A DNA stretch of 64,000 bases from Bacteroidota bacterium. Its GTDB lineage: Bacteria > Bacteroidota > Bacteroidia > UKL13-3. The position numbers and the translations under genes were made by a program. The DNA lies in contig JAIXSO010000024.1 of NCBI GenBank assembly GCA_027484685.1, forward strand, positions 1 to 64,000, in the 5' to 3' direction. Shown here piece after piece: positions 51,762 to 54,016 of this stretch. The notes under the pieces are model-generated. The model saw only the letters and a list, made by a program, of their open reading frames with translations. It was not told where the DNA came from and did no database searches. Positions within the stretch are counted from its first letter, which is position 1; every line of letters begins with the position of its first letter.

Positions 51762-52020
51762 GTTGAATTGTTTTCACGCAAGGCGTGATTTAATTGGTTA
51801 ATTGCATGTTGTCAATTGCTAATTGCTTATTGCTTTTTCCCATTGCCTATTGCTTATTACTTTTTCCGTTGGCTAAAGCCGAACGGCAATTGATTTTTTG
51901 CTGATATTACATTGCTTATTGCCGCCTCGTCATGCCGCAGGCATCTTCCTTAATTAACTTTAACCTTTCCATTATCTTTTGAGTAATTTTTGTTTTGACT
52001 TTATATCTCATATACACTCA

Positions 52021-52262
52021 TTTAAAAAATACGGTTTTCGATTGAAACAATAAGGTTTTAAGGTAGGAAAATGGACTTTTAAACTCAAACAATAGGGTTT
52101 TAAAATAAAACAATACGGTTTTGAGATAAAACAATGCCATGTTAAAGTGAAACAATGACATGTTAAGTTAAAGCAATATGGTTTTAGTTTTAAACAATAC
52201 GGTTTTAAAATAGAGAAATGGGTTTTTAAAGTTAAGCAATGCATTTTAAAACCAAACAACGG
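52021..52262. repeat. 21-nt tandem repeat (minisatellite), about 11 units
   Basis: Consensus AACAATACGGTTTTAAAATAA. The C of 'CAAT' (or equivalent position) falls at 52048, 52069, 52090, 52111, 52132, 52153, 52174, 52195, 52216 and 52237, exact 21-nt phasing. Confidence 0.9.
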
Positions 52263-52466
52263 CTTATGCGAGCTTTATAAAATGCGACTAGATATTTACA
52301 CTAAAAATCCTTTCAAGCAGAGTTATTTGAGAGGATTTTTTTCTTGTAGAAACCTTATAAATTTTCCTTGAATGTATGTTAAAGAAATTTATATTCGTAA
52401 GCGACAAGTAAAAAACGAATGTTTTAAAAACTTTCGTGTATAAATGAGTTACCTGCCATTTGAAGA

Positions 52467-53210
52467 ATGAAACAGACAACTAAAATATTGACCATTCTGA
52501 CAATCTTGGTTAGTTGCACTTCAACTACTAACAAGACAGAGAATTCAACTAAAATGGTTGATTATGGTAAAATGATTGAAGAATATTTACAGAAAAAGAT
52601 AATCGAGCCAACAATAGTGTTTAATAATGACGGGCGAGAGGAGATTGATTTATTAGAGCATAAAATTAAATGGAGAGATTTAGAGAAAGGAATTGAAATA
52701 ATAGTTGACAGTCACATAATTACAACTTCAGACAAAGTAACTTCCAATGCAGTTTGGGGCTCTACCGCTGACAGTGTGAATTTTGCCAACTTCTTACAGC
52801 AAGTTAAAATTTATGAATATGACTCTTTGATTGGATTTGTCCTAACTAGTAGTCCTTGCACCGGACTTGGCTGTAGTGTGAATTATCAAATCATTTACGA
52901 CTTAAAAACAAGAAAACAGACCTACTTTGGTCGCCTTAGGACAGGATCCGAATTTGTACTTTATCACTTCAACTCAGACGAACGACTAGATTATTTAAGC
53001 AAAACATTCTATGGCAGAAATGCCAAAGGAATTGACACAACAGAATTCGTCTTATATAGTCAGACCAAAAAGGGGAACTTTGAAGAGTTTAAAGCAGATA
53101 AACAAGAAAGATTTTGGTTCAAACATATTTACACGGAGTTTCAAACTGACTTGAAGAATGAAGGATTTGAAGAAAAATGGATAGAAAAGATAAATAAAAA
53201 CAGCAGGTAA
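52467..53210 (+). CDS. Hypothetical lipoprotein
   Basis: 247 aa, 'MKQTTKILTILTILVSCTSTTNK' lipobox. Confidence 0.75.
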   Translation: MKQTTKILTILTILVSCTSTTNKTENSTKMVDYGKMIEEYLQKKIIEPTIVFNNDGREEIDLLEHKIKWRDLEKGIEIIVDSHIITTSDKVTSNAVWGSTADSVNFANFLQQVKIYEYDSLIGFVLTSSPCTGLGCSVNYQIIYDLKTRKQTYFGRLRTGSEFVLYHFNSDERLDYLSKTFYGRNAKGIDTTEFVLYSQTKKGNFEEFKADKQERFWFKHIYTEFQTDLKNEGFEEKWIEKINKNSR

Positions 53211-53333
53211 CAGCACCTACCCGAAAGTGGCGGTTCAGTGGTACAATAAAGCTTTGTGCATCTATCAAAGTTGCTGCTTGGTTGACAGTGAAGTGCTTCG
53301 AAATCGCCACCTTCGGGAGCTCTCAAACCGTTA
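53208..53333. repeat. attC-like long inverted-repeat site between two orphan lipoprotein ORFs
   Basis: TAAC (53208-53211) ... CCCGAAAGTGGCG (53220-53232) ... CGCCACCTTCGGG (53305-53317) ... GTTA (53330-53333). Confidence 0.5.
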
Positions 53334-53344
53334 GCACTCATTTT

Positions 53345-53854
53345 ATGACTATAAAAACGACATTCATATTAACAATTTTAATTTTGATTTGCGGACTTAT
53401 TTCTTGCGAACCATATAATGCATCGCAAAAAGCAATAGAGAATAAATCTAACTTTTCACTTTCAATAACAACATATAATCACGCTGAACAAATATTTAAT
53501 GGCATTACCACCTATGACCTAAAAAATGACACTTTGAAAATTCACAGGTCATTTATGTTTTCAAATAAGGACACAATGTTATTTTCAAAAACAATTGACA
53601 ATAATTCCATAGAACAAATAAGGATTATACGTATTGACAATTTGAAGGACTTCTATTTCAACAATTGCATAATGGCTACAAGTGGAAATGAATATTTTAT
53701 CTCAACGACTTTCGACACAGTTAATAAGAAAATTTATCTTCATCACTACTACCACAAACAAATTGAAAGATTAATTAATGAAGTTAATAAAAATATACCA
53801 GACAATTTAAAACTTAACTATTTAACGAGTGAAACTAAACAGGACTGCAAATGA
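53345..53854 (+). CDS. Hypothetical lipoprotein
   Basis: Start revised from 53282 to the ATG at 53345 (MTIKTTFILTILILICGLISCEPYNA), which gives a lipobox; the upstream extension lies inside the inverted-repeat site. Confidence 0.7.
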   Translation: MTIKTTFILTILILICGLISCEPYNASQKAIENKSNFSLSITTYNHAEQIFNGITTYDLKNDTLKIHRSFMFSNKDTMLFSKTIDNNSIEQIRIIRIDNLKDFYFNNCIMATSGNEYFISTTFDTVNKKIYLHHYYHKQIERLINEVNKNIPDNLKLNYLTSETKQDCK

Positions 53855-54016
53855 AAACAAGTGATAACAGGCATTTGGCTAAAAGCGATTTCAGTGCTCC
53901 GCAGGTACAATTGTGGTTAATAAAACATTAGTTTTTCAATAATAGATTCTGATATGGTTTTAAAACCCAACCGTATCATAAGGTACAAAATAAAAAGTTA
54001 TAAAAATCACCATTAA

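Follow-up and report, generated by a model that had tools for sequence, protein, structure and literature searches.

A structured repeat between two putative lipoprotein genes

What kind of element lies between two adjacent putative lipoprotein genes of a Bacteroidota bacterium, and does it move? To address this, we analyzed a 64,000-nucleotide stretch of the genome of a bacterium of the UKL13-3 lineage (GenBank assembly GCA_027484685.1, contig JAIXSO010000024.1, positions 1 to 64,000, forward strand; hereafter the window). An earlier note, made from the letters of the sequence, had described the spacer at 53208–53333 as a candidate attC-like recombination site of an integron gene cassette. 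The observation itself is correct. The TAA stop codon of the first gene (53208–53210) begins a TAAC motif, the 13-nt arm CCCGAAAGTGGCG (53220–53232) is complementary to CGCCACCTTCGGG (53305–53317) except at one position, the element closes with GTTA at 53330–53333, and the next ATG is at 53345. The interpretation as a gene cassette was also supported. In our reading, which we hold to be very probable, the repeat at 53208–53333 is the attC-like site carried by a mobile gene cassette, and the cassette is part of an integron-like system found in Bacteroidota. Judged by all comparative signs, this system behaves like an integron; it is new in its class of integrase and in the architecture of its sites, and it is widespread in Bacteroidota. 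The evidence is read directly from the compared sequences and consists of a repeat family, the logic of its arrays, a conserved order of integrase, attI, and cassettes, covariation within the sites, and the orientation of the cassettes.

Copies and arrays of the repeat

BLAST searches with the 126-bp repeat gave 5–6 matches in the same genome and detected the repeat in 35 of 58 relatives. A covariance model, R1, built from 28 copies, revealed at least 19 copies in the same genome and matches in 102 of 117 relatives; these genome counts are lower bounds, with 30 candidates per genome scored. The window copy, which was among those 28, scored 101 bits (E 4.5e-20). R1 matched all five named Bacteroidota tested, and zero matches were obtained in 10 non-Bacteroidota genomes. 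Thus, the further copies that the earlier note had proposed to look for are numerous, both in this genome and in relatives.

Iterated profile searches of the fetched loci with nhmmer revealed head-to-tail arrays on one strand, mostly with a spacing of 0.5–1.5 kb and with one small gene between two repeat copies. Some repeats stand singly, outside arrays. In an alignment of 78 copies, the ends were near-invariant (AACAG ... CAAAACGTTA), and the arms varied yet stayed paired.

The proposed mobile unit and its boundaries

In integrons, a cassette begins with bases complementary to those that immediately precede the TAAC of its own attC, and circularization of the cassette brings the two together. 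We examined this rule in 35 cassettes. The five bases after GTTA (positions 5–9) matched the reverse complement of the five bases before the TAAC of the next repeat at 126 of 175 positions, compared with 65 ± 6 for shuffled partners (z = 10). Positions 12–15 of the cassette start matched as well (z = 5.4), and the two flanks of one repeat copy, examined as a control, did not (z = 0.2). Because the two ends of the cassette pair and the flanks of a single copy do not, the mobile unit appears to be the gene together with its repeat, with the junction within GTTA. This pattern would be expected of an excised circle that re-forms attC after a cut within GTTA.

The same rule applied in the window, where GTTACCTGC at 52448–52456 is the exact reverse complement of GCAGGTAAC at 53203–53211. 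This places the left boundary of the first cassette between G52448 and T52449, and the element is thus larger than first described. Across 52 cassettes, the longest open reading frame (ORF) lay on the attC strand in 51; the ORFs mostly started close behind GTTA and stopped just before the site. The core was GTTA in 47 cassettes and GTTG in 5, and none fitted the canonical GTTRRRY, in agreement with the divergent class that the earlier note had suspected from the core in the window.

Folding and covariation of the sites

The DNA strand of the window site, folded in its array context, was only slightly more stable than shuffled sequences (z = -1.2), and its RNA form gave z = -2.9. Folding by itself is insufficient, and the case rests on conservation and copy number. 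We then rebuilt 52 sites in the form expected in circular cassettes. For 51 of these, the bottom strand gained stability relative to its form in the array (mean -30.3 versus -22.6 kcal/mol); a small number of the 52 pairings extend over several repeats and may be incorrect. For the window cassette, the values were -27.9 and -19.4 kcal/mol, respectively. In 39 rebuilt sites, 92.6% of cells were paired, compared with 61.3 ± 1.0 in shuffled controls, and 26 of 29 pairs showed compensatory changes on both sides. The sites share a two-level stem with an asymmetric spacer of 1 versus 6 nt.

Integrases and attI-like sites at array heads

The earlier note had also proposed a search for an IntI-like tyrosine recombinase, and such enzymes were found at the head of these arrays, including in the genome of the window. 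Many arrays are directly preceded, on their own strand, by a gene for a tyrosine recombinase of approximately 345–370 amino acids. A conserved attI-like site with the end sequence ATAARCNAGTTA is found about 95 bp after the integrase stop codon and is immediately followed by the first cassette; in seven loci, the start of this cassette was the exact (9/9) partner of the left flank of the first repeat. The same order was observed in Algoriphagus ornithinivorans and Cyclobacterium, and also in Winogradskyella and Seonamhaeicola, where the cassettes start with GTTGT. In the genome of the window, contig C24 (locus L079) carries an integrase, attI, and two cassettes, the second of which encodes an AAA_21-type ATPase.

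Five contigs from different genomes stop precisely at the GTTA of attI and a sixth stops one base earlier, as would be expected from an assembler if the sequence that follows varied between cells. We take these ends as evidence from nature for the point of exchange. By DNA BLAST, which missed diverged copies, the joint presence of repeat and integrase was unconvincing, and the comparison was redone with the covariance model. With integrase presence called at E <= 1e-40, the integrase family was found in 71 of 102 genomes with repeats versus 1 of 15 without (117 genomes).

Separately, plasmid NZ_CP041688 of Chryseobacterium sp. SNU WT5 (locus L092) carries an integrase with 61% identity, an attI-like core, and two 126-bp repeats, together with IS110, a group II intron gene, and a 176-bp segment repeated four times.

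Relationship of the array integrases

The catalytic residues R, K, H, R, H, and Y were invariant across the array integrases. Their best NCBIfam match was NF040815 ("site-specific tyrosine recombinase/integron integrase", XerA-like) with 208–237 bits (cut-off 220). Against the integron-integrase profile TIGR02249, they scored 194–208 bits (cut-off 265); this profile as a whole also matches Xer, and the classification therefore used residue spacing and a tree, not the score alone. The distance from the catalytic Lys to the HxxR motif was 64–65 residues, as against 105–106 in seven true IntIs and 64–75 in Xer-like proteins. Therefore, the IntI-specific insertion around patch III (I2 helix) is absent. 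AlphaFold models predict an extra N-terminal bb-a-bb-a domain (whole-chain mean pLDDT, the predicted local distance difference test, 81.5), and the nearest solved structures were XerA (PDB 5hxy, 4a8e) and the integron integrase 2a3v.

A tree of 81 proteins placed the array integrases with IntI, apart from Xer (94/93). IntI formed one clade on a long stem and in the best tree was placed among insert-less relatives, and a single sister clade of array integrases was not rejected (approximately unbiased test, p = 0.40). Nearest to IntI in this tree were insert-less integrases from metagenome-assembled genomes labelled Undinarchaeales, Firmicutes UBA5388, and Spirochaetia (L145, L151, and L152); R1 found no repeats in these three genomes.

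Thus, the proposal of a cassette with an attC-like site was upheld, and membership of the IntI/attC family as currently defined was not, because the IntI insertion is missing from the integrase and none of the cores reads GTTRRRY. We tentatively raise the possibility, which we hold to be somewhat doubtful, that a second, phylum-wide kind of integron exists in Bacteroidota, whose integrases never had the IntI insertion and recognize long cassette-specific stems. IntI would then be an offshoot of this group, and the integron mode would predate the insertion or not need it.

The array in the window

The window array lies on the forward strand and consists of an attI-like core and two cassettes without an integrase, a complete integron being located elsewhere in the same genome. 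The attI-like site was assigned by sequence to 52390–52451; its core, TATAAATGAGTTA at 52439–52451, is preceded by ATTCGT/ACGAAT arms and is the same as that of the attI-like sites about 95 bp behind array integrases (e.g., ATATAAATGAGTTA at L070). Cassette 1 (52449–53330) begins with TTACCTGC, just after G52448, and includes its own repeat as far as the final G. Its gene (52467–53210) encodes a putative lipoprotein of 247 amino acids, for which no family match and no homologue among 244 relatives were found. Cassette 2 starts at 53331 and was traced to 54000, a right end that is uncertain because the repeat that closes it is degraded. Its start, GTTAGCAC at 53330–53337, pairs at 7 of 8 positions with GTGATAAC at 53861–53868. 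The gene (53345–53854; a putative lipoprotein of 169 amino acids) had no family match and a single relative, 27% identical, among the 244 genomes. Of the closing repeat, only the 5' part (TAACAGGCATTTGGC..TTCAGTG) was recognized, at 53865–53940 (nhmmer 14.8 bits; cmsearch 17.6 bits, E 0.08).

According to the earlier note, conserved synteny of the flanking genes would have spoken against a cassette. The transglycosylase and outer-membrane genes upstream are kept across the genus, and the flanking genes are not: in six relatives, the sequence behind these upstream genes held no counterpart of the cassette genes or of the genes that lie beyond the cassettes here. Degenerate tandem repeats of 21, 42, and 84 bp occupy 52020–52249, just upstream of the attI-like site.

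Proposed mechanism and alternative explanations

We propose that a cassette comprises one small gene and a site of approximately 126 bp. Upon excision as a circle at GTTA, the first ~14 bases of the cassette would join the end of the site, which would thereby gain an outer stem of 9 bp + 4 bp, missing in the array, on top of the imperfect inner stem of ~16 pairs. The enzyme proposed to act on this structure is the IntI-like tyrosine recombinase whose gene immediately precedes attI and points towards it. It would bind the site in its folded, single-stranded form and link the cassette, always in the same direction, to attI or a further attC; the cassette genes would consequently be read away from attI. 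The enzyme encoded on C24 could act in trans on the window array. In this scheme, the strand used and the exact cut within GTTA are inferred from the sequence comparison.

Several points weigh against this proposal. Recombination, the cassette circles, and expression are likewise predictions from sequence. The co-occurrence of repeats and integrases (Fisher p = 4e-6) was calculated for related genomes and is support rather than a clean probability, and some genomes carry repeats without the integrase. The starts of the 52 rebuilt circles were picked to match, with at most one mismatch, and the nine box pairs beside the core are thus partly paired by construction; the outermost four and the inner ~16 pairs are independent of this choice. 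No integrase or recognizable remnant was found in the window. Together with the degraded second repeat, this may mean that the window array is frozen. In addition, the outer arm of the site in the window reads TTCGGGAGCTCTC in place of TTCGGGTAGCTGC, a small local difference that may make the site weaker.

A window array with cassette logic, overlap with the stop codon, and no local integrase could also be the debris of a classical integron, that is, a cluster of canonical attC sites from which any IntI of the known family is missing (CALIN). We consider this very unlikely. No cassette start fitted GTTRRRY (0/52), R1 had no match in the surroundings of true integron integrases (six loci), no integrase above the TIGR02249 cut-off was present in 58 genomes, and the integrases that head the arrays lack the IntI insertion. 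The many genome-wide copies, the single copies outside arrays, and the hairpin structure would also suit a non-mobile structured intergenic repeat, or a miniature inverted-repeat transposable element (a bacterial interspersed palindrome), spread by a transposase and merely lying between genes. The two ends of such an element should pair with each other, whereas here the pairing joins the start and the end of gene plus repeat and leaves the flanks of each copy unpaired. With 51 of 52 cassettes in the same orientation, one gene per interval, and integrase and attI at the array heads, we regard this explanation as highly improbable. We give even less credence to an RNA element, a terminator or attenuator at the 3' end of lipoprotein genes. 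Its RNA form does fold better than shuffled sequences, as given above, but an Rfam search of the window returned no family, the outer stem arises only upon rebuilding across the cassette and not in the transcript, and the cassette genes are mutually unrelated. A function as an RNA element could be a secondary role of the site.

Cassette contents and associated elements

The cassettes contain short lipoproteins, genes of unknown function, and defence-like genes (NB-ARC/TPR, TIR-type, KAP NTPase, HNH, GmrSD, and DUF5615), which are unrelated to one another. Many cassette genes at L129, L131, L078, L124, L072, and L079 resemble anti-phage defence proteins, namely NB-ARC/TPR, a TIR effector, KAP NTPase PDC-S20, HNH, GmrSD, and an AAA_21 ATPase. 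Defence genes are also common in Vibrio integrons.

Two further elements were observed at the edges of the sites. In three genomes, a DDE transposase element (DUF772/DDE_Tnp_1_6) is located exactly behind the attC end ...AACGTCAGG[AT]TGTGAAAAAACT, at L036:4355–5890 (contig C23 of the genome of the window; repeat end 5984) and at L020, L051, and L054. It seems to be an insertion sequence targeting these attC sites. An AT-rich repeat of approximately 110 bp ending in CTACCGCAGGTTTAGTT directly adjoins the left end of individual attC copies in seven places (L053:9524, 11806, and 17008; L054; L077 of genome G029) and is perhaps the end of another attC-targeting element.

Comparison with known systems

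Integron surveys depend on the IntI insertion and on canonical attC models, and Bacteroidetes have been reported to be nearly devoid of integrons (PMC9024848). If the arrays work, a gene-capture platform with unknown lipoproteins and many defence-like genes would be present in most genomes sampled from the class. The role assigned to the IntI insertion would then be questioned, and an origin of integrons from Xer-like enzymes would become testable. Our literature search found no description of the system; subscription papers and preprints lay outside this search, and a prior report is possible.

The system shares with IntI integrons, such as class 1 and the Vibrio superintegron, a tyrosine recombinase with the C-terminal SP[LF]D signature, an attI, arrays of single-gene cassettes in one orientation, attC sites with TAAC...GTTA ends, a cassette start complementary to the 5' end of attC, and a junction within GTT(A). 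Unlike IntI, the array integrase lacks the insertion of ~40 amino acids and has a predicted additional N-terminal domain, and attI lies downstream of the integrase gene. The sites differ from canonical attC in their length of ~126 bp, in the asymmetric spacer, and in the core, which is not GTTRRRY but GTTR plus variable bases with pairing over 9+4 bp. The window array likewise resembles a CALIN except that its sites are not canonical attC.

Xer recombinases act on a single dif site, where they resolve dimers, and are not known to head cassette arrays. XerA/Xer is the best structure and family match of the array integrases, with the same catalytic core and no insert; in the tree, Xer forms a separate group.

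In Treponema, integrases read towards attI, and one R' box is GTTAGGT, which is canonical (PMC3607928). In archaea, attI is downstream of intI, and the integrases are reported to carry the IntI-specific domain (PMC9668308). The present system has in common with both that the integrase reads towards attI and the cassettes, and it has neither the IntI-specific domain nor a canonical R' box. In Bacteroidetes, IntegronFinder 2.0 reported nothing beyond integrase-only elements and one complete integron, in Salinibacter (PMC9024848). A survey of tyrosine recombinases described the insertion as "essential for integron function" and, in an integron-like subgroup, as "not fully conserved"; in the parts of that survey consulted, no insert-less members of the subgroup were linked to cassette arrays (PMC8138268). 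The array integrases described here may belong in this "integron-like" subgroup of simple tyrosine recombinases.
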